A DNA stretch of 64,000 nt, taken from the NCBI RefSeq assembly GCF_902459555.1, contig NZ_CABPSM010000003.1, positions 248,001 to 312,000 on the forward strand, given 5' to 3'. Source of the DNA: Pandoraea horticolens. GTDB lineage: Bacteria; Pseudomonadota; Gammaproteobacteria; Burkholderiales; Burkholderiaceae. Below, in pieces: positions 10,336-64,000 of this stretch (positions within the stretch are counted from its first letter, which is position 1; each line of letters starts with the position of its first letter). A program made the position numbers and the translations under genes. The notes under the pieces were generated by a model. It made no database searches. It worked only from the letters and a program-made list of their open reading frames with translations, and was not told where the DNA came from.

Positions 10336-11247
10336 TTAGCCTGCCGAGACCTTCGCCAGATGCCCCGCGAGGAAATCCAGAAATGCATGCACCTTCCTGG
10401 AGTGGCGCCGGTTTGGCAGATAGGCTGCATGCACGCTGATGTGCTGGTCCTGCGGATTGATCTCGTAGTCCTCGAACAGTCGCTGCAGACGCCCCGCGCG
10501 CACATCTTCCTGCACCAGCCATTCGGCCAGCAGTGCAACGCCTAGATCATCCAGCACGGCCTCGCGCAGCATATCCGAGCTGTTGGCCGCCAAGCGCCCC
10601 TGAATTTCCACATGCTGAACCGTGCTGCCCTGCCGGAATGACCAACGCTGCGGCCCGGCCTGATAGGCGAAGCGCAGGCACTCGTGCGCGCTCAATTCCG
10701 CGGGCGAGGTCGGCATCCCGCGCTGCTCAAGATATCCATGACTGGCGACCACGTAGCGGTGATGCTCGGCCAGGTGGCGCACGATGAGGTGAGGCTGATT
10801 GGCCGGAGCGCCGATGCGCACCGCTACGTCGATGCGCTCGGCGGCCAGATCGACATAGGCATCCGACAGGACTAGATCCAGCGACACGCGCGGGTGTTCG
10901 CGCAGGAAGCCGGGAATGTGTGGCGCCAGGCACACGCGCGCGAACGTGACCGGCAGCGATACCCGCAGCGGGCCAACCGCTTCCCCTCCCGCATCCGACA
11001 CGCTGCCGTCGGCCTCGTCAAGGTCGGACAGCACCTGTGAAACCTGCTCCAGATAGGCCGCGCCCGCATCGGTGAGCGTCACACGGCGCGTGGAGCGGGT
11101 CAGCAGCGCCGTGCCCAGCGACGCCTCCAGACCATCGATCAACCGGGTCACTGACGATGTAGCCACACCTAGCCGCCGCGCGGCTTTGGAGAAACCACCC
11201 GATTCCGCCACGTCCACGAAGGCGCGCAAAGCTTGCAGTTTGTTCAT
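10336..11247 (-). CDS. LysR-family transcriptional regulator of the DsbA/monooxygenase block
   Basis: A 303-residue LysR protein: HTH at residues 1-60 (LQALRAFVDVAESGGFSKAARRLG, SSVTRLIDGLEASLG), then the effector-binding domain. The subgroup resembles regulators of the AaeR/DsdC-like branch that have a short N-terminus and control neighbouring oxidoreductases. It is divergent from the DsbA-like gene at 11354 across a 106-base spacer that contains an exact tandem repeat, so it most likely controls the block 11354-14928. Confidence 0.92.
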   Translation of the reverse strand: MNKLQALRAFVDVAESGGFSKAARRLGVATSSVTRLIDGLEASLGTALLTRSTRRVTLTDAGAAYLEQVSQVLSDLDEADGSVSDAGGEAVGPLRVSLPVTFARVCLAPHIPGFLREHPRVSLDLVLSDAYVDLAAERIDVAVRIGAPANQPHLIVRHLAEHHRYVVASHGYLEQRGMPTSPAELSAHECLRFAYQAGPQRWSFRQGSTVQHVEIQGRLAANSSDMLREAVLDDLGVALLAEWLVQEDVRAGRLQRLFEDYEINPQDQHISVHAAYLPNRRHSRKVHAFLDFLAGHLAKVSAG

Positions 11248-55287: not shown

Positions 55288-56232
55288 ATGATCGAACTGC
55301 GTCATTTCCAGTACTTCGTGGTGCTCGCGGAGACTCTGCATTTCGGCCGTGCGGCCCAGCAGTTGCATATCTCGCAGCCGCCGCTGTCGCGTCAGATTGC
55401 GTTGATGGAGGCGGAACTGGGGGTGCTGCTGTTCGAGCGCACGCGCCGCAGTGTGCGGCTCACGCGTGCAGGCGCACGCTTCTATCAGGACGCCGTGGAA
55501 ATCCTGAACTCGGTCGAGCGGGCACGTCGCAATGCCGTGGCGGCGAGCCGGGGCGAGGATGGCGCGATCACGGTGGGCTTCATGATGTCCTCGGCGTACA
55601 ACATCCTGCCTGCGCTGACGCGCACTTACGCCGCTGCGTATTCGCGGGTCGACATGAAGCTGGCGGAAACGCTCCCCAACTTACTGGCCGAAGCGGTGCG
55701 TGCGGGGCAGACCGACGTTGGCATCATGTACCGCCCCGAAGACCTCACCGGGCTCGATACCGCGACAGTGTTTCGCGAGGAGATGGTGGCGGTACTGCCG
55801 CGCACGCACGCGCTCGCCAAGGCGCGCGTGCTCGACGCCTCGCAACTGGCCGAAGAGTCGTTCGTGAGCATTCCGCGCGAGATCGCGCCGCTGGTCTACG
55901 ATCTGGTCGTCGACCACTGCCGTCGCGTGGGATTTTCGCCGCACATCCGGCTGGAAACCAACTTGCAGCAGACGATTATCAATCTGGTGGGGGAGGGCCT
56001 TGGTGTGGCGATGGTGCCGATGTCGATGAGCAGTGCGAGTGCGTCGGGCAGCGCGGTATTCAAGCCGTTGCGCAACGCGCCGGTGGCGGAGGTGGCGCTG
56101 CTGTGGAGCCGAGACAATCACAACCCGTGCGTCGCGACGTTCGTCGAAAACGCGAGAACAGTGTGGCGTGAGATGCAGCGCGCACCGGGCGCACGGCTGG
56201 TGCCCGACAGCCCAGACACCGGTGTGCGATGA
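55288..56232 (+). CDS. LysR-family transcriptional regulator
   Basis: A 314-residue LysR protein of the CynR/BenM-like branch: HTH at residues 3-60 (LRHFQYFVVLAETLHFGRAAQQLHIS, QPPLSRQIALMEAELGVLLFERT) and an effector domain with GEDGAITVGFMMSSAYNILP. The start at 55288 is the family start; the RBS is poor and overlapped by a palindrome. Its target is not obvious: neither neighbour is an enzyme gene transcribed away from it, apart from the divergent enhancer-binding protein. Confidence 0.92.
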   Translation: MIELRHFQYFVVLAETLHFGRAAQQLHISQPPLSRQIALMEAELGVLLFERTRRSVRLTRAGARFYQDAVEILNSVERARRNAVAASRGEDGAITVGFMMSSAYNILPALTRTYAAAYSRVDMKLAETLPNLLAEAVRAGQTDVGIMYRPEDLTGLDTATVFREEMVAVLPRTHALAKARVLDASQLAEESFVSIPREIAPLVYDLVVDHCRRVGFSPHIRLETNLQQTIINLVGEGLGVAMVPMSMSSASASGSAVFKPLRNAPVAEVALLWSRDNHNPCVATFVENARTVWREMQRAPGARLVPDSPDTGVR

Positions 56233-56336: not shown

Positions 56337-57059
56337 TTACACTCGGTCGCCCAGCACTGTGGCTCGCGTAAAGGTTTCGATGTTGTCCAGCAATGCATCG
56401 AGGGCTTCACCTGCGCGTTTCACGTCGCCGGCAGCAATCGCTTCGGCGACTTCCGCATGCAGTCGCGCCATGGTCGGCAGGTCGGCTGCTTCTTTGTAGT
56501 GGTAATACCAGAAGCGGCGTGATAGCCCGTGCATCAGGCGCATTGCTCCTTCGGCGAATTCGTTGCGTGCGGCGACAAGACACAACTCGTTGAACTCGCG
56601 GTCGGCACGAATGAACTCCACATCCTTGCCGCTGCGGGCGGAACTTCTGAACTCCTTTGCCAGACGCGTGAAGTGTTCGCGTTGCTCTGCCGTGGCCTTC
56701 TTCGCCGCGCTTCTGGCAATCAGTCGTTCGACCTCGCGTCGCGTTTCCAGCAGACGCAACTGCTTGGAGACATCCATCGGGGGCACGAGCAGGCCGCGCT
56801 GTGGCAACACAATAATCAAATGTTCCCGGGCCAGCCGCTGAATGGCTTCGCGAATCGGGGTGCGGCCGAACCCCGTCATTTCGCTCAACTGCAACTCCGA
56901 CATTGTTGAACCCGGGGCCAGCCGCAGCGTCACTATCGCTTCTTCGATCCACTCGTAGGCCATGTCGACCATTCTGCCGCGAGGGATCACGTCCACTCGT
57001 TCATCGAGCGCCGCGGCTTCTGATTTTCCCGTCCGTCGGGTCGCTTTCTTTGTCGCCAT
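56337..57059 (-). CDS. GntR-family regulator with FCD ligand-binding domain
   Basis: A 240-residue repressor-type protein. The winged helix is at residues 25-95 (YEWIEEAIVTLRLAPGSTMSELQL, GFGRTPIREAIQRLAREHLIIV) and the helical FCD domain fills the rest (RLLETRREVERLIAR, ADREFNELCLVAARN, ARLHAEVAEAIAAGD). In many FCD proteins the second motif has His where this one has Asn (D-x-E-F-N), so a metal ligand may be altered. The start at 57059 (MATKKATRR) follows a basic disordered tail. It is divergent from the alpha/beta hydrolase and is the natural candidate to bind the three CTAATATRTTA sites of the cluster. Confidence 0.92.
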   Translation of the reverse strand: MATKKATRRTGKSEAAALDERVDVIPRGRMVDMAYEWIEEAIVTLRLAPGSTMSELQLSEMTGFGRTPIREAIQRLAREHLIIVLPQRGLLVPPMDVSKQLRLLETRREVERLIARSAAKKATAEQREHFTRLAKEFRSSARSGKDVEFIRADREFNELCLVAARNEFAEGAMRLMHGLSRRFWYYHYKEAADLPTMARLHAEVAEAIAAGDVKRAGEALDALLDNIETFTRATVLGDRV

Positions 57060-57175
57060 TTGGTCAATGCCCAGAGCAAATGTTAATTGTATATCACCTG
57101 CTTCTGGCGATAGCGGCGACATGTCCCGGTCTTCAACACACCTCATACCTCGGGCTTTCCCGGTATGCACATTGC

Positions 57176-57203
57176 TTGTTTGAATAAACTGATGTGCTAT
57201 TAT
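57176..57203 (+). promoter_or_regulatory. Candidate promoter of the hydrolase-dehydrogenase operon
   Basis: TTGTTT (57176-57181), a 16-base spacer and TATTAT (57198-57203). The predicted start point near 57210 falls inside the palindrome 57209-57224, so occupation of that site would block the promoter. Confidence 0.5.
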
Positions 57204-57208
57204 TGGTC

Positions 57209-57224
57209 AACTAATATATTACTG
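57209..57224. promoter_or_regulatory. GntR operator site 1 (AACTAATATATTACTG)
   Basis: Imperfect palindrome, 14 of 16 bases identical to the perfect site at 61000-61015. It is 17 bases before the hydrolase start codon and lies in the spacer shared with the GntR gene, so it could serve both directions. Confidence 0.65.
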
Positions 57225-57240
57225 GAATGAAGGGGCGGCG

Positions 57241-58002
57241 ATGGACATCACGAGGGTGGGGAGGCCGGACGGCTTCCCTGTGGTTGCCTTGCATGGCATT
57301 CAGGGAACGAGCGACTCGTGGATTCCGCTTGCAACGGCGCTCGGCGATACGTTCCGTTTCATCTTGCCCAACATGCCGGGACGCGGCGACGCAGGCCCCC
57401 CGCTTGCCGCACACGCGTGCAGTGCCTGCGAGTTCGCGCGCGTCACCAGCGAGGTCATCGAACAAGAGGTCGGCCATCGCGCCTACGTTCTGGCCGGCTG
57501 GAGCATGGGTGTCTCCGTGATCCTCGAGCTCATGGAGCATTTGGCGGACGGCACGGCGCGGCATTCTCCGCCGGTCGCCGTTGTCCTCATGTCGGGCACC
57601 GCACAGTTGAACGAGGTGGCCTGGTTTGCGTCGACCGACGAGACTGCGCTCCTCACCGAGATCAGGCAGCGCGAGGCACGTCTGAGGCTAAAGAGAGCAG
57701 CGGACCCGCATGTCGTGGCCTGGACCTGGAGCGCGCTAAAGCCAGTCTCGCATCTGTCGAATCTGGCGCATGTCGGCGTGCCTGCCCTCATCGTCCACGG
57801 CAGCGACGACGAAGACTGCCCACTCGATCACGCGCATCGCATGCGCGAAGGAATCCGTCGCGCATCATTGCATGTGATTCCTAGCGGGCGTCACTCGATC
57901 CTGACGGAGAACACCTGTGAGGTCGGCATCGCCATGCGAGATTTCCTGGCGTCGCACTGCGCGGAGCCAAGGCCACTAATCGACCAACAGGAAAATTCAT
58001 GA
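57241..58002 (+). CDS. Alpha/beta hydrolase
   Basis: A 253-residue alpha/beta-hydrolase. The oxyanion region is ALHGIQGTSDSWIPL, the nucleophile is Ser88 in AGWSMGVSV, the acid is probably Asp190 or 192 in IVHGSDDEDCP, and the His is His218 in SGRHSILTEN. No signal peptide, so cytoplasmic. It could be an esterase, a C-C hydrolase or a lactonase; the family cannot be told by eye. RBS is AAGGGG-like. It overlaps the dehydrogenase gene by four bases (ATGA), and site 1 sits on its promoter. Confidence 0.88.
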   Translation: MDITRVGRPDGFPVVALHGIQGTSDSWIPLATALGDTFRFILPNMPGRGDAGPPLAAHACSACEFARVTSEVIEQEVGHRAYVLAGWSMGVSVILELMEHLADGTARHSPPVAVVLMSGTAQLNEVAWFASTDETALLTEIRQREARLRLKRAADPHVVAWTWSALKPVSHLSNLAHVGVPALIVHGSDDEDCPLDHAHRMREGIRRASLHVIPSGRHSILTENTCEVGIAMRDFLASHCAEPRPLIDQQENS

Positions 58003-59264
58003 GGATCGACGATTGCGTCCACTTTTGTGCGCCCTCCCGGCTCATCATCGAGCTGGGTTATCGCCACAAGCTCCCCAACCTTCTGCAAGCCCTGGGCTAC
58101 CGGCGGGGGCTGCTCGTCACCGACAGCTTCTTTGCCGAGAAAACACTCTGGGTGAAGGAGTACGTGACGGCGTGCGAACGCCTGGGGGTGCATGTGGACG
58201 TCTATGCTGGCGGTCAGCCCGACCCGACCACGGATCTGTGCGATCGCGCGACGGCCGAACTGCGCATCGCCCAAGGGGGCCAGTTGCCGGATCATATCGT
58301 CTCGCTAGGCGGCGGCAGCAACATCGATCTGGCCAAGGCGTTGTGCGTCACGCTTGCGGCGGGCCGCCCCATTCGCGACTTCGGAGGCGGCGTAGCAAGC
58401 GATGCGCCCGTCATCGACCACATCGCTGTGCCAACGACAGCCGGCACGGGGGCGGAACTCACCCCCGGAACCATTCTGTTCGATCCGGCGACCGGCATCA
58501 AAACCGCCGTGATGGACAATCGGCTACGTCCGGTCGTCGCCGCCATCGACCCCGAACTCACATTCACATGCCCGCCCAAGGTCACGGCGGAATCCGGCAT
58601 CGACGCCCTGACGCACGCGCTCGAATCGTTCGTTACGCTCGACTCCGATCGATTCGATCGGAACGGCTCCTTCGATCCCGGCTACAGCGGTCGCAGCGGT
58701 CTGACCATGATCTTTGCGCGCGAGTCGATCCGGCTAGCCACCGCCTATCTACTTCGTTGTTACGAAGATGGTAACGACGTGGAGGCGCGCGTCGGCATGT
58801 GCTATGCGAGCGTCTACGCGGCAATGTCGTATGGGAGCGCCGGACTCAATGCGGTTCATGGCATTGCTTATGGCGTCGCCGCGCTGACGCACAAGTCCCA
58901 CGGCGCCACGAATGCGGTTGTCCTGCCGTATGTCGTCGATGCGCTGCGCGAGTCGCGCCACGCCGAACTCCTCGAAGTGGCCCGAATGTTCGGCATCAAG
59001 ACTGACGACGAAGTGCGGGCCGTTCGCGAGTTGCCCCACAAATTGCGCGAGCTTGTCGGCAAGCTCGGCATCCCCACTGATCTCAATGCCTTCGGCATTT
59101 CCCAGGGATCGCTGAGGGATTTGCTCATCGATTCACTTGGCGTGACTCGGTTGGCCAAAGCATTCCCGGTCGGGAATATCGAAGAGTGCTACGCGGAAAT
59201 CATCGACAACGCGTGGCGTGGAGGTCTTCGAGACGAGAAGACAGAGAGACGGCCGGCAGCCTGA
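57999..59264 (+). CDS. Iron-containing (type III) alcohol dehydrogenase
   Basis: A 421-residue Fe-ADH. The NAD-binding GGGSNIDLAKALCV, the family motif VPTTAGTGAELTPGTI, and the metal ligands in TAESGIDALTHALE (Asp/His) and NAVHGIAYGVAALTHKSHGATNAVVLPY (two His) are all present. Related enzymes reduce aldehydes, hydroxy-acids or maleylacetate; the substrate here is not predictable. Start overlaps the hydrolase stop (ATGA), so the two are translationally coupled and likely consecutive pathway steps. Confidence 0.9.
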   Translation: MRIDDCVHFCAPSRLIIELGYRHKLPNLLQALGYRRGLLVTDSFFAEKTLWVKEYVTACERLGVHVDVYAGGQPDPTTDLCDRATAELRIAQGGQLPDHIVSLGGGSNIDLAKALCVTLAAGRPIRDFGGGVASDAPVIDHIAVPTTAGTGAELTPGTILFDPATGIKTAVMDNRLRPVVAAIDPELTFTCPPKVTAESGIDALTHALESFVTLDSDRFDRNGSFDPGYSGRSGLTMIFARESIRLATAYLLRCYEDGNDVEARVGMCYASVYAAMSYGSAGLNAVHGIAYGVAALTHKSHGATNAVVLPYVVDALRESRHAELLEVARMFGIKTDDEVRAVRELPHKLRELVGKLGIPTDLNAFGISQGSLRDLLIDSLGVTRLAKAFPVGNIEECYAEIIDNAWRGGLRDEKTERRPAA

Positions 59265-59359
59265 TCAACGCGATTCCCATCGATTCGACAGGTCGCTGCC
59301 GCCGCGCAAAGACACAATTCGCCATTCGGCCGGACGCACCGGTCACTTTGCGTTTCGAT

Positions 59360-59375
59360 GTCTAATATGTTAGAT
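59360..59375. promoter_or_regulatory. GntR operator site 2 (GTCTAATATGTTAGAT)
   Basis: Inverted repeat TCTAA-tatg-TTAGA (59361-59374), 12 of 16 bases identical to the perfect site at 61000. It stands 36 bases before the MFS start codon, between the alcohol dehydrogenase and MFS genes, suggesting a second promoter there. Confidence 0.6.
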
Positions 59376-59410
59376 GACTATCAGTAGAATACAACGGAGG
59401 AGACACAAGC

Positions 59411-60793
59411 ATGGATATGTCCGCAGCCGCGTCGCGGCTAGGTGTTGACGTCGTCGCGCGTCTAGAGCGACTCCCGATGACGAACTATCAACGAACGCTT
59501 TTCTCTATCATCGCCACCGCCTGGTTCTTCGATTCCATGGATCTCGGGTTGATGACGTTTGTACTCGGTTCGATCAAGGCGGAGTTCGGCCTTTCCGCCT
59601 CGCAGGCAGGACTGCTCGCCAGTTCCAGCTTTCTCGGCATGTTCGTGGGCGCCGCCACCGCGGGGCTTCTTGCGGACAAGTTCGGGCGCAAGCCGGTCTT
59701 TCAGGTCAGCATGCTCTTCTGGGGGGCCGGCAGCCTGATGTGCGGCTTTGCTCACAATGTCGAGTCGCTGATGATGTACCGCGTCCTGCTCGGCTTCGGT
59801 ATGGGCATGGAGTTCCCGATCGGTCTCTCGATGGTTTCAGAGATCGTTCCTGCCAGAAGTCGCGGCAAGTATGTGGCCATCCTCGAAGGTTTCTGGCCCA
59901 TCGGCTTCATCGCGGCTGGCGCATTTTCCTACTTCATGCTCCCGGTGATCGGGTGGCGCGGCATCTTCATCGCGTTGGCGATCCCGGCCGTTTTCGTGTT
60001 CGTGGTCAGGCGAATGGTGCCCGAATCGCCTCGTTGGCTGGAAGACACAGGGCGCATGAAGGAAGCGGCGGACGTGATGAACCACATCGAAGCCAAAGTG
60101 GAGACGGCCTATGGCCGTAAGTTGCCAGCGCCCGTCGTCGTGCCGGGCGTGCGGCACCAGCAGACCGGCCGGAAGGCGCTCTTTTCGGAGATATGGCGCG
60201 GCGTGTATGCGAAGCGAACGGTCATGCTGTGGACCACCTGGTTCTTCGCGCTGTTGGGCTACTACGGGCTGACAACGTGGTTGGGGGCATTGCTGCAGCA
60301 GGCCGGATACGAGATCACCAAATCCGTGCTCTACACCGTCTATATCTCACTGGCAGGCATCCCCGGCTTCCTTTTCTCTGCCTGGTTGCTGGAGAAATGG
60401 GGACGCAAGCCGACCTGCGCATTGATGCTGCTTGGCAGTGCGCTCGCCGCCTATCTATACGGTCAGGCGGCAGGCAACAAGGCACCGATCGAGCAGTTGA
60501 TTGCCACAGGGCTATTGATGCAGTTCTTTCTCTTCGGCATGTGGTCTGTGTTGTACGCCTACACACCGGAGCTTTACCCGACCCGTACCCGTGCAACGGG
60601 CTCGGGTTTTGCCTCCTCCATCGGACGCGTCGGCTCTCTCGCCGGCCCTTTCGCCATTGGCGTGCTGCTCCCGACCTGGGGACAAACGGGGGTGTTCACC
60701 ATGGGGGCTCTGTCCTTCGTGATTGCCGCGCTGGCCGTACTGCTGCTTGGCGTCGAGACGAAGGGCCGTTCGCTGGAGGACGTTTCGCACTGA
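59411..60793 (+). CDS. MFS transporter (aromatic acid:H+ symporter / sugar-porter-like)
   Basis: A 460-residue carrier with twelve predicted segments. The between-2-and-3 motif is GLLADKFGRKPVFQVSM, and EIVPARSRGKYVAILEGFW and YTPELYPTRTRATGSGFASS are MFS signature regions. The long central loop (residues 205-260) and general pattern resemble the carriers for niacin, benzoate or 4-hydroxybenzoate, but I cannot assign the solute. RBS GGAGGAG at 59397-59403. Site 2 lies upstream. It is probably the import system of the cluster's substrate. Confidence 0.9.
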   Translation: MDMSAAASRLGVDVVARLERLPMTNYQRTLFSIIATAWFFDSMDLGLMTFVLGSIKAEFGLSASQAGLLASSSFLGMFVGAATAGLLADKFGRKPVFQVSMLFWGAGSLMCGFAHNVESLMMYRVLLGFGMGMEFPIGLSMVSEIVPARSRGKYVAILEGFWPIGFIAAGAFSYFMLPVIGWRGIFIALAIPAVFVFVVRRMVPESPRWLEDTGRMKEAADVMNHIEAKVETAYGRKLPAPVVVPGVRHQQTGRKALFSEIWRGVYAKRTVMLWTTWFFALLGYYGLTTWLGALLQQAGYEITKSVLYTVYISLAGIPGFLFSAWLLEKWGRKPTCALMLLGSALAAYLYGQAAGNKAPIEQLIATGLLMQFFLFGMWSVLYAYTPELYPTRTRATGSGFASSIGRVGSLAGPFAIGVLLPTWGQTGVFTMGALSFVIAALAVLLLGVETKGRSLEDVSH

Positions 60794-60824
60794 CCCGCTG
60801 TTGGAGATTTACCTGTTCTTGACC

Positions 60825-60846
60825 CGGCGGGGCGCGGTCCCCGCCG
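60825..60846. terminator. GC-rich hairpin after the MFS gene
   Basis: CGGCGGGG (60825-60832), loop CGCGGT, CCCCGCCG (60839-60846), 32 bases after the MFS stop, without a T-run. Could be a Rho-assisted terminator or 3'-end stabiliser. Confidence 0.4.
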
Positions 60847-60999
60847 CGCGGAACTGCGGCGTCGACCGCGCCTGAAGCCAGTGGGGCCGGTCGACGCACC
60901 TTCTCCGGTACCCACGGCACGAACGTCCATCCCGAATCACTTCATCGATTCCACTTTCCCAAACAGTGAATGCCATTCAGATGATTTTTGTTTTCATTT

Positions 61000-61015
61000 A
61001 ACTAATATATTAGTT
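61000..61015. promoter_or_regulatory. GntR operator site 3 (perfect palindrome)
   Basis: AACTAATATATTAGTT, a perfect 16-base palindrome in the AT-rich segment before the hydroxylase gene. It is 45 bases before that gene's start codon and overlaps the likely promoter (a TTGTTT box at 60988). This is the best copy of the three. Confidence 0.65.
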
Positions 61016-61984: not shown

Positions 61985-62740
61985 TCAGATCTCCAGAATC
62001 CCGGCGGCGACGAAGCCGCCGTCGACCGGCAGGATGTGGCCGGTGACATACGACGCGTCGTCCGAGGCGAGGAAGCTCACCGCACCTGCGATTTCGCTCG
62101 GTTGCCCGTAGCGGCCGAGTGGCGTCGTCTCCGTATAGTTGCGTCGTGAAACGTCGGAGTGAAGCACCTGCGTGAGCGGCGTGTCGATGGGGCCGGGGGC
62201 GACGCCGTTGGCGGTAATGCCGAAGGGCGCGAGTTCGATGGCCATCTGGCGTGTGAGACCGATGACGGCGGCTTTCGACGTTCCATAAGCCGTGCGTCCC
62301 GCGCTGGCCAGAATGCCCGCCACGGACGCCAGATTGACGATCCGTCCCCAGTGCTGTTCGCGCATGAGTCGCGCGGCGTGCTGCCCGCACAGCAGTGTGC
62401 CCGTGAGGTTCACGTTCATCACCTGGTGCCAGTGATCGAGCGGATAGTCGAGAAACGGGAACGTCTTGGCGATCCCCGCGTTGTTCACGAGCACATCGCA
62501 ACGGCCATACCGTTGCGCGATCTGAGCGAAGCCATCGGCAATCGATGCGGCGTCGCCCACATTCATCCTCAGCGCCCACGCCTTGCCGCCTGCCGCGTTC
62601 AGCTTCGCCGCCGTATCGCCCGCCGCGTCTTCGTTCAGATCGGCGACAACGACCGTCATGCCGTCATTCACCAACCGTTCGCAGATAGCGGCGCCGATAC
62701 CCATGCCGCCGCCTGTAACAACTGCTACCTTCTCCGTCAT
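61985..62740 (-). CDS. SDR-family oxidoreductase (FabG-like)
   Basis: A 251-residue classical short-chain dehydrogenase: VAVVTGGGMGIGAAICERL, DVLVNNAGIAKTF, active site ASVAGILASAGRTAYGTSKAAVIGLT with Ser, Tyr and Lys intact, and TANGVAPGPIDTPLTQ. Reduces or oxidises a hydroxyl/keto group with NAD(P). RBS AGGAG before 62740. It follows the TRAP permease gene in the same direction after a 101-base gap that holds a 14-base hairpin; it probably belongs to the catabolic cluster. Confidence 0.92.
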   Translation of the reverse strand: MTEKVAVVTGGGMGIGAAICERLVNDGMTVVVADLNEDAAGDTAAKLNAAGGKAWALRMNVGDAASIADGFAQIAQRYGRCDVLVNNAGIAKTFPFLDYPLDHWHQVMNVNLTGTLLCGQHAARLMREQHWGRIVNLASVAGILASAGRTAYGTSKAAVIGLTRQMAIELAPFGITANGVAPGPIDTPLTQVLHSDVSRRNYTETTPLGRYGQPSEIAGAVSFLASDDASYVTGHILPVDGGFVAAGILEI

Positions 62741-62774
62741 GCTATGGACTCCTAAATTTATTGACTTCTACAGC

Positions 62775-62809
62775 ACGGGCTCCGCCGCCAGCAGCGCGGC
62801 GGAGCCCGT
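62775..62809 (-). terminator. Strong hairpin between the TRAP permease and SDR genes
   Basis: A 14-base perfect stem (62775-62788 with 62796-62809; arms read ACGGGCTCCGCCGC and its complement) and a 7-base loop. No T-run follows on the minus strand, so it may be an mRNA-processing or partial-termination site inside a transporter-enzyme transcript. Confidence 0.6.
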
Positions 62810-62841
62810 CGGTAATATCGAGAAACGTTAGTGGGGGTGTC

Positions 62842-64000
62842 TTACTTCAGAAAGCCGATCGAGATCCAGGGGATGAAGACCACGATAAGCAGTGCGATGA
62901 GCAGCGCGCCCATGTAGGTCCACATCCGGTTGAACACCTTGTCCGGCGACGTTTTGCCAATGGCGCACGCGGCGTAGAAACCGACGCCGAGCGGCGGTGC
63001 GAACAGGCCCATGCCCATCGACAGGATCACGACCATCGCGTAATGCACGTCGTGAATGCCCAGCGAGCGGGCGACCGGAAAGAGCAGCGGCCCGAACAGC
63101 ACGATGGCCGGAATGCCTTCCAGCACACTGCCCAGCACGATGAACACGACCATCGAGATGAGCAGGAAGCCGATCTGTCCGCCCGGCACACCATGCATCA
63201 GCCCGACGAGCTTGGCGGAGAAGCCCGACTGCGTGAGCGCCCAGGCCATGGCCGTGGCCATGCCGATGATGAGCAGGATGGCGCCGGAAAGTGCCGCCGT
63301 TTCCGTCAGAAGCGGATATAGGCGCTTGAAGTTCAGGTGCTTCTTGAAGGCATGGACGAGCAGGCCGATCACGATCGTGTAGGCGATACCGATCGTGGAC
63401 ACTTCCGTCGCCGTGGCGGCGCCTTCGATCACGGCCGTGCGGATCAGAATCGGCAAGGCGAGTGCCGGCAACGCCACGATGAACGTCTTGCCGATCACGC
63501 TCCACGGCGCACGGCGTGCCGCACTGGGGGCCTCTTTGCGCGAGCGCGTGAAGCACACCACGACGATGGCCAGCGTGGCGATGACGGCAGGCAGCAGGCC
63601 GCCGACAAAGAGCGCGGTGATGGACACGCCGCACACCGCACCGATGGTGATGAGCACGAGACTGGGCGGAATCGTCTCCGTCATGGCGCCGGTCGACGAG
63701 AGCAGTGCGACGAGGTCTTCCGGTTTCGATCCGCGCCGCTGCATCTCGGGGAAGAGGGCCGGCGCGACGGCTGCCATGTCGGCAGCCTTCGATCCGGAAA
63801 TTCCCGAGACCAGGAACATCGCACCGAGCAGCACGTATTGCAGGCCGCCGCGCACATGGCCGAGCAGCGAGGCCATGAATTCGATCAGGCTGCGGGCAAG
63901 CCCGCTCATCTCGATCAGCGCGCCGAGCAGCACGAACAGCGGCACCGACAGCAGGATGAGGCCCGACATGCCCTCGTCCATGCGACTGACGACGATTTGC
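62842..64000 (-). CDS. TRAP transporter large permease (DctM), 5' end cut by window edge
   Basis: The frame is open to the right edge (codons before the ATG at 63981 read QIVVSR, which matches the DctM run VSRMDEGMSG), so the N-terminal part lies outside. About 386 codons are visible with roughly ten hydrophobic segments, including VPLFVLLGALIEMSGL, GISGSKAADMAAVAPALFPEM and VVILSMGMGLFAPPLGVGFYAACAIG. DctM carries organic acids with sodium, with DctP as binding protein. Upstream genes (DctQ, DctP) would be beyond 64000. It precedes the SDR gene. Confidence 0.9.
   Translation of the reverse strand, partial: QIVVSRMDEGMSGLILLSVPLFVLLGALIEMSGLARSLIEFMASLLGHVRGGLQYVLLGAMFLVSGISGSKAADMAAVAPALFPEMQRRGSKPEDLVALLSSTGAMTETIPPSLVLITIGAVCGVSITALFVGGLLPAVIATLAIVVVCFTRSRKEAPSAARRAPWSVIGKTFIVALPALALPILIRTAVIEGAATATEVSTIGIAYTIVIGLLVHAFKKHLNFKRLYPLLTETAALSGAILLIIGMATAMAWALTQSGFSAKLVGLMHGVPGGQIGFLLISMVVFIVLGSVLEGIPAIVLFGPLLFPVARSLGIHDVHYAMVVILSMGMGLFAPPLGVGFYAACAIGKTSPDKVFNRMWTYMGALLIALLIVVFIPWISIGFLK

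Follow-up and report, generated by a model that had tools for sequence, protein, structure and literature searches.

Which protein controls the catabolic gene cluster found in a 64,000-nucleotide (nt) stretch of Pandoraea horticolens DNA? The stretch, called the window here, covers positions 248,001 to 312,000 of contig NZ_CABPSM010000003.1. Three similar 16-bp palindromes (operators 1 to 3 in Table 1) precede three units of the cluster, and a gene for a GntR regulator with an FCD domain lies beside the first. A first-pass annotation proposed that this GntR protein represses all three units. The analysis indicates that the palindromes are very probably operators of the FCD-type GntR repressor at 56337-57059, whose release would derepress a small catabolic pathway. 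The assignment of regulator to operator is strong, and from sequence we infer the binding, the dimer, the sign of regulation, the effector and the pathway substrate. We read the system as a conserved regulon under GntR/FCD control that comprises three units in this genome; it is of an ordinary kind, and its operator departs from the usual consensus.

Co-occurrence of the palindromes and the GntR gene

The exact core of the palindromes is confined to the cluster. The three stretches lie at 57209, 59360 and 61000, as first described, and the third is the perfect one, with 8/8 base pairs over 16 bp against 6/8 in each of the other two. The shared core CTAATATRTTA stands just before three start codons, again as described, and 16 (hydrolase), 35 (MFS carrier) and 44 nt (hydroxylase) separate the end of the site from the codon. 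Random scatter over the genome, which the first-pass annotation had named as telling against its proposal, is not observed: on both strands of the 68 contigs (6,008,490 bases) the exact core is found at three places, all in the cluster. The control, a reversed pattern containing TATAAT, matches once in the same genome. Markov models trained on window positions 1-53000 predict 0.01-0.07 exact matches per genome, but they understate the background, because the reversed pattern matches at least once in 27 of the 32 genomes of the genus.

Looser matching weakens the signal. With at most one mismatch to CTAATATATTAG there are three places in the genome, all in the cluster, versus two for the control. 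With at most two there are 17 versus 20, of which 14 are scattered beyond the cluster, and the signal is lost. In the window the two-mismatch scan gives seven rows over both strands compared with a shuffle mean of 1.78, and the sole extra place is 7226. The number of matches alone is modest, and the case therefore rests on uniqueness, clustering and conservation. A chance origin as AT-rich palindromes in GC-rich intergenic DNA would fit the background level of the two-mismatch versions and the 2 of 100 window shuffles that reach seven, but the exact sites are confined to the cluster in this genome and are kept across many genera, and chance is extremely improbable.

Within Pandoraea the sites are found where the GntR gene is found. 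The genus sample consisted of 32 genomes, and the GntR protein is present at 72-100% identity in 16 of them. The exact core occurs in the same 16 genomes and in none of the 16 without the gene; 15 of the latter have relatives of about 35% identity or less at best, and one small genome has none. All 43 exact-core rows listed in the genus scan are no farther than about 4.1 kb from the GntR gene. The match between site and gene has a Fisher probability of 3e-9 with relatedness ignored, a value that overstates the evidence because the species share ancestry. In five of the 16 loci the hydroxylase gene has moved to about 50-112 nt after the MFS gene, and its own site is gone.

The palindromes might belong to another regulator, such as the LysR-type protein encoded next to the cluster at 55288-56232 or a protein encoded elsewhere, with GntR as a bystander. 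The LysR gene does adjoin the cluster in the window, but at 98% identity or more it is beside the cluster in only 4/16 Pandoraea loci, versus 16/16 for the GntR gene. In addition, same-core palindromes stand beside other GntR-family genes in genomes that have no close relative of this regulator, at 17 of 17 exact sites among the matches listed. Control by a different regulator is thus very unlikely.

The sites are also kept outside the genus. With the GntR protein as query, 58 loci were obtained from genome contigs, nine from Pandoraea and 49 others, some of which are near-duplicates (for example two from Herminiimonas). A site was scored if it had at most two mismatches and lay within 200 nt upstream of a gene, and the expected numbers came from shuffles. 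In the non-Pandoraea loci a site precedes the hydroxylase in 41/47 (expected 0.33), the hydrolase in 24/31 (0.28), the MFS gene in 16/26 (0.15) and the GntR gene in 22/49 (0.22). The iron-containing alcohol dehydrogenase (Fe-ADH) gene has one in only 2/32 (expected 0.03), in L066 and L071, which have no hydrolase gene ahead of it, and SDR matches have none in nine loci (expected 0). Overall the Fe-ADH gene is without its own site in 48/50 loci. Conservation in relatives had been set beforehand as a test, and the sites are kept in the orthologous clusters of Pandoraea and of the 49 other loci.

Gene order has been reshuffled among lineages, and the sites stay before the gene that opens a unit. 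The six Paraburkholderia-type and Caballeronia loci (L081-L086) have the order hydrolase, Fe-ADH, hydroxylase, MFS, GntR, and it is the hydrolase and hydroxylase genes that are preceded by sites. Five metagenome-assembled loci (L100, L105, L107, L108, L109) were found to have only the GntR and hydroxylase genes of the set, with a site in between. An ABC operon takes the place of the carrier in Hydrogenophaga and two relatives, and the variant site CAACTGCTATATTAGTT(G/A) lies in front of it or at the same distance. The Hydrogenophaga ABC operon also holds an SDR gene, a hydrolase gene and a 38%-identical hydroxylase gene. The hydroxylase reaches 59% identity or more in 44 of the 349 family genomes, and not one of these 44 lacks the GntR gene. 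A loose scan with one mismatch finds a match in 208 of the 349 and is not discriminating alone; in a genus assigned to Cupriavidus (g3) the mean number of places is 3.4 where the GntR gene is present (20 genomes) versus 1.2 where it is absent (29 genomes).

Promoters and the direction of control

The positions of the operators relative to conserved promoter elements suggest repression by blocking of the polymerase. A strict sigma-70 scan found no promoter, and therefore the promoter claims rest on conservation. The first-pass annotation placed site 1 on a transcription start; the strict scan gave no support to this, while the extended -10 sequence TGCTATTA(T/C) just before site 1 does, being present in 15/15 Pandoraea loci shown (L035, which has a hydrolase remnant, is outside this set). 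Upstream of the hydrolase gene, TATAAT-like hexamers (at least 5/6) end 7 nt (12/41 loci) or 4 nt (7/41) before CTAATA, so the operator of this unit probably covers the start point. In 24/54 loci a TTGACA-like box (at least 5/6) is found upstream of the hydroxylase gene, with 16-18 nt between it and the operator's TAATAT, and the operator thus appears to contain the -10 box. A second TTGACA-like peak at spacer 6 (5/54 at 5/6) is too near for a -35. In two of the three units, then, the operators would lie over the -10 box or the start point.

In the proposed mechanism a repressor dimer would sit on each palindrome, covering the -10 box of the hydroxylase gene or the start point of the hydrolase-dehydrogenase unit. 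At site 1 the dimer would have the gene of the regulator itself on one side and the hydrolase unit on the other. With no inducer, the carrier, membrane hydroxylase, hydrolase and dehydrogenase would all be off. The imported substrate, or else the hydroxylase product, would probably be the effector that releases the repressor and turns on the whole pathway together. Derepression by a pathway intermediate would follow the usual pattern of the subfamily, in which a small acid ligand frees the regulator from its operator. One site lying between two divergent genes generally acts on both (PMC4494728), and self-regulation of the GntR gene is therefore probable.

Repression of all three units by GntR, as originally claimed, agrees with the co-occurrence in genus and family and with operators over -10 or +1 in two units; for the MFS gene no promoter could be placed. 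The missing MFS promoter, and the fact that some FCD regulators activate, would suit a GntR protein that binds the same operators as an activator or dual regulator. However, an activator bound over -10 or +1 would block the polymerase in two units, and activation is unlikely.

Several points weigh against the view that the palindromes are repressor operators of this GntR protein. The MFS promoter could not be placed on operator 2, and the operator CAACTAATATATTAGTTG is without the GT...AC of the usual, although not defining, FadR-subfamily consensus. Close species are not independent. Of the 349 family genomes, seven have a GntR relative at 43-53% identity and no hydroxylase match, and in three a hydroxylase relative at 39-44% occurs without a GntR match. 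The hydroxylase genes of L053, L101, L102, L104 and L111 have no site with at most two mismatches, and operon position is no explanation for these. Such a site is also missing before the hydrolase gene in L079, L080, L090, L092, L096, L099, L113 and the remnant in L035.

Genes without a site were counted over all loci. For 66 hydroxylase loci a site with at most two mismatches is found in 54, one with three mismatches in two (L101 and L111), and none in ten. Five of these ten are the closed-up Pandoraea loci, and two (L097 and L106) are downstream of an ABC operon that is headed by a site; L053, L102 and L104 are the others. In L104 a two-mismatch site lies about 90 nt before the matched part of the hydroxylase and was missed by the start estimate. 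No site with at most three mismatches is found for the hydrolase gene in 7/49 loci or for the MFS gene in 10/45, and five of these ten MFS genes (L081, L082, L083, L085, L087) follow the hydroxylase gene in the same direction. L053, on a Methylobacterium nodulans plasmid, has the GntR (50% identity), MFS and hydroxylase genes and other palindromes, TGTGATATATCACG and, by eye, CGTGATATATCTTG; its operator has perhaps changed together with its regulator.

A possible operator class outside the usual consensus

The site counts give CAACTAATATRTTAGTTG, in which the flanking C at -8.5 (42/49 hydroxylase sites) played no part in selection. A half-site-like ATYAG lies directly 3' of operator 2 (59374-59384), 11 nt after the TTAG of the operator or about one helical turn. 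It is at the same place in 15/15 Pandoraea loci having the MFS operator and is possibly an extra repressor contact.

The gene context of BioR, another member of the FadR subfamily, is biotin. Its operator TTATMKATAA differs in sequence from the one described here, but it is likewise a mostly A/T palindrome without GT...AC (PMC4494728). According to that paper the consensus of the subfamily consists of TKGT and ACMA boxes separated by 2 or 3 nt, and BioR and NanR are the named exceptions; the core TAATATATTA has A-A where the published boxes have K-G. Local catabolic repressors of the subfamily, of which DgoR, GlcC, LldR, MdcY and UxuR are examples (PMC4494728), share with the present system a GntR helix-turn-helix (HTH) and an FCD domain, short AT-rich palindromes, a divergent gene with an intervening site, and catabolic and transport neighbours. 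A literature search, with RegPrecise and paper supplements outside its range, found no paper pairing TAATATATTA with GntR and identified neither the cluster substrate nor the motif; CTAATATATTAG appeared only in two works, on Bacillus cereus and Candida as judged by title.

By our alignment to E. coli FadR, Leu56 of the GntR protein is at HTH position 28, where Arg is usual. Arg at this position is tied to a G/C pair (PMC4494728) at the operator place where the sites here have A-A. None of 34 aligned regulators has Arg at the Leu56 position, as read by eye. Leu56 as the cause of the odd operator is a weakened explanation, because the regulators of L114-L118 combine Arg there with the same palindrome core (also by eye). 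The metal site of FCD domains is formed by Asp plus histidines. At these places in the GntR protein N157 is invariant where His is usual, H201 is invariant, H187 is nearly invariant, and the last His is replaced.

The same core is found beside distantly related regulators. For comparison, 17 exact CTAATATATTAG sites (among the matches listed, from genomes without a close GntR relative) and three chosen one-mismatch CTAATATGTTAG sites were fetched, with reading frames near them taken stop to stop. A GntR-family frame starts within about 120 nt at all 20. GntR and FCD domains were confirmed by Pfam in the four regulators tested, and the regulators are 25-42% identical to that of the window. Those of L114-L128, L132 and L133, which have galactarate-type and other sugar-acid-type neighbours, share the core CTAATATATTAG beside the regulator gene but are only 25-32% identical, and the flanks are mostly CCAAC...GTTGG or CAC...GTG. 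Neighbours in this group were typed by Pfam in L116, L122 and L127; they suggest a pathway in these three loci, being genes of galactarate dehydratase, mandelate racemase and dihydroxy-acid dehydratase type. Passages of PMC5507952 on the galactarate regulator GguR give no motif. L129-L131, from one genus of the family, have a 41-42% GntR relative with the operator core immediately next to the gene that encodes it; L130 has no catabolic neighbour among the genes tested.

The chances are about even that several separate Burkholderiales FCD clades share the operator class CTAATATATTAG, departing from the GT...AC rule, and that this clade serves an undescribed oxygen-dependent pathway of degradation, centred on the His-rich membrane hydroxylase, as its dedicated and co-inherited switch. 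The locus offers a concrete candidate regulator-operator pair. The inducer is likely close to the pathway substrate, and it may therefore be a handle for finding the substrate of the hydroxylase pathway. The occurrence of the core beside distant FCD regulators suggests a testable gap in the published operator rule of the subfamily.

Genes of the cluster and related loci

The region has the order LysR, GntR/FCD, alpha/beta hydrolase, Fe-ADH, MFS carrier and His-rich membrane hydroxylase (Table 1). Beyond the hydroxylase gene, on the other strand, are genes for an SDR and a TRAP permease. The units and the regulator are as first annotated, with Pfam giving hydrolase/Fe-ADH, MFS, FA_hydroxylase-like and GntR/FCD.

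Table 1. Positions of sites and genes in the window
Feature	Position	Strand	Remarks
LysR-type regulator	55288-56232		adjoins cluster
GntR/FCD regulator, 240 aa, proposed repressor	56337-57059	-	PF00392 and PF07729 above cut-off; co-occurs with sites in 16/16 genomes
Probable hydrolase-unit promoter	57176-57203	+	TTGTTT, 16 nt, TATTAT with TG before; read by eye
Operator 1, AACTAATATATTACTG	57209-57224	none	between divergent GntR and hydrolase genes, over likely start point
Alpha/beta hydrolase, 253 aa	57241-58002	+	PF00561/PF12697
Iron-containing alcohol dehydrogenase (Fe-ADH)	57999-59264	+	PF00465/PF25137; overlaps hydrolase stop, one unit with hydrolase
Operator 2, GTCTAATATGTTAGAT	59360-59375	none	upstream of MFS gene
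MFS transporter, 460 aa	59411-60793	+	PF07690/PF00083; sugar/aromatic-acid porter type
Operator 3, AACTAATATATTAGTT	61000-61015	none	perfect palindrome; its TAATAT is the likely hydroxylase -10; the window's own -35 is weak
Membrane His-rich hydroxylase (likely di-iron), 269 aa	61060-61869	+	sterol desaturase/FA_hydroxylase superfamily; PF04116 below cut-off
SDR and TRAP genes	61985-64000	-	no operator found

The GntR protein has an N-terminal winged helix (PF00392, 53.7 bits, cut-off 27) and a C-terminal FCD domain (PF07729, 73.7 bits, cut-off 24.3), and translation more likely begins at the ATG at 57059 than at the GTG at 57170. The MFS transporter scores 293.4 bits as an aromatic acid/H+ symporter (TIGR00895), which is under the NCBIfam cut-off of 418.55. 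The hydroxylase shares conserved His clusters with the sterol desaturase/fatty acid hydroxylase superfamily, but it differs in its link to a hydrolase and an Fe-ADH and in its PF04116 score of 27.6 bits, below the cut-off of 31; a 61%-identical relative in L100 scores 34.6. Residues H70, H75, H90, H94, H95, H162, H166, H185, H186, H189 and H190 are kept in 65/65 sequences, and by family the enzyme is likely of the di-iron type. A sequence comparison with solved structures gave no match up to E = 1. A nod-box hydroxylase of Mimosa symbionts is reported to be less than 40% identical to those of other bacteria (PMC5789663).

The first-pass annotation had suggested looking for a fourth site before the TRAP operon, and none is present at two or fewer mismatches. 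The SDR-TRAP block is beside the cluster at high identity in only 4/16 Pandoraea loci. For these two reasons the block is probably outside the regulon.

Other arrangements were seen in single loci. In L035 the hydrolase match has shrunk to about 160 nt, and the operator is still kept before the Fe-ADH gene. In L101, a betaproteobacterial metagenome-assembled locus, an exact operator at 10681 precedes a uroporphyrinogen-decarboxylase-like gene (by eye), and the hydroxylase gene is farther off. Plasmids of Cupriavidus (L137), Hydrogenophaga (L136), Indioceanicola (L138) and Halomonas (L134) carry genes for 38-46% identical hydroxylases in the vicinity of DUF6166 genes, and three of these four loci also have ABC or TRAP carriers. 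Versions of the operator with one or two mismatches are nearby in these plasmid loci, an alphaproteobacterium included.

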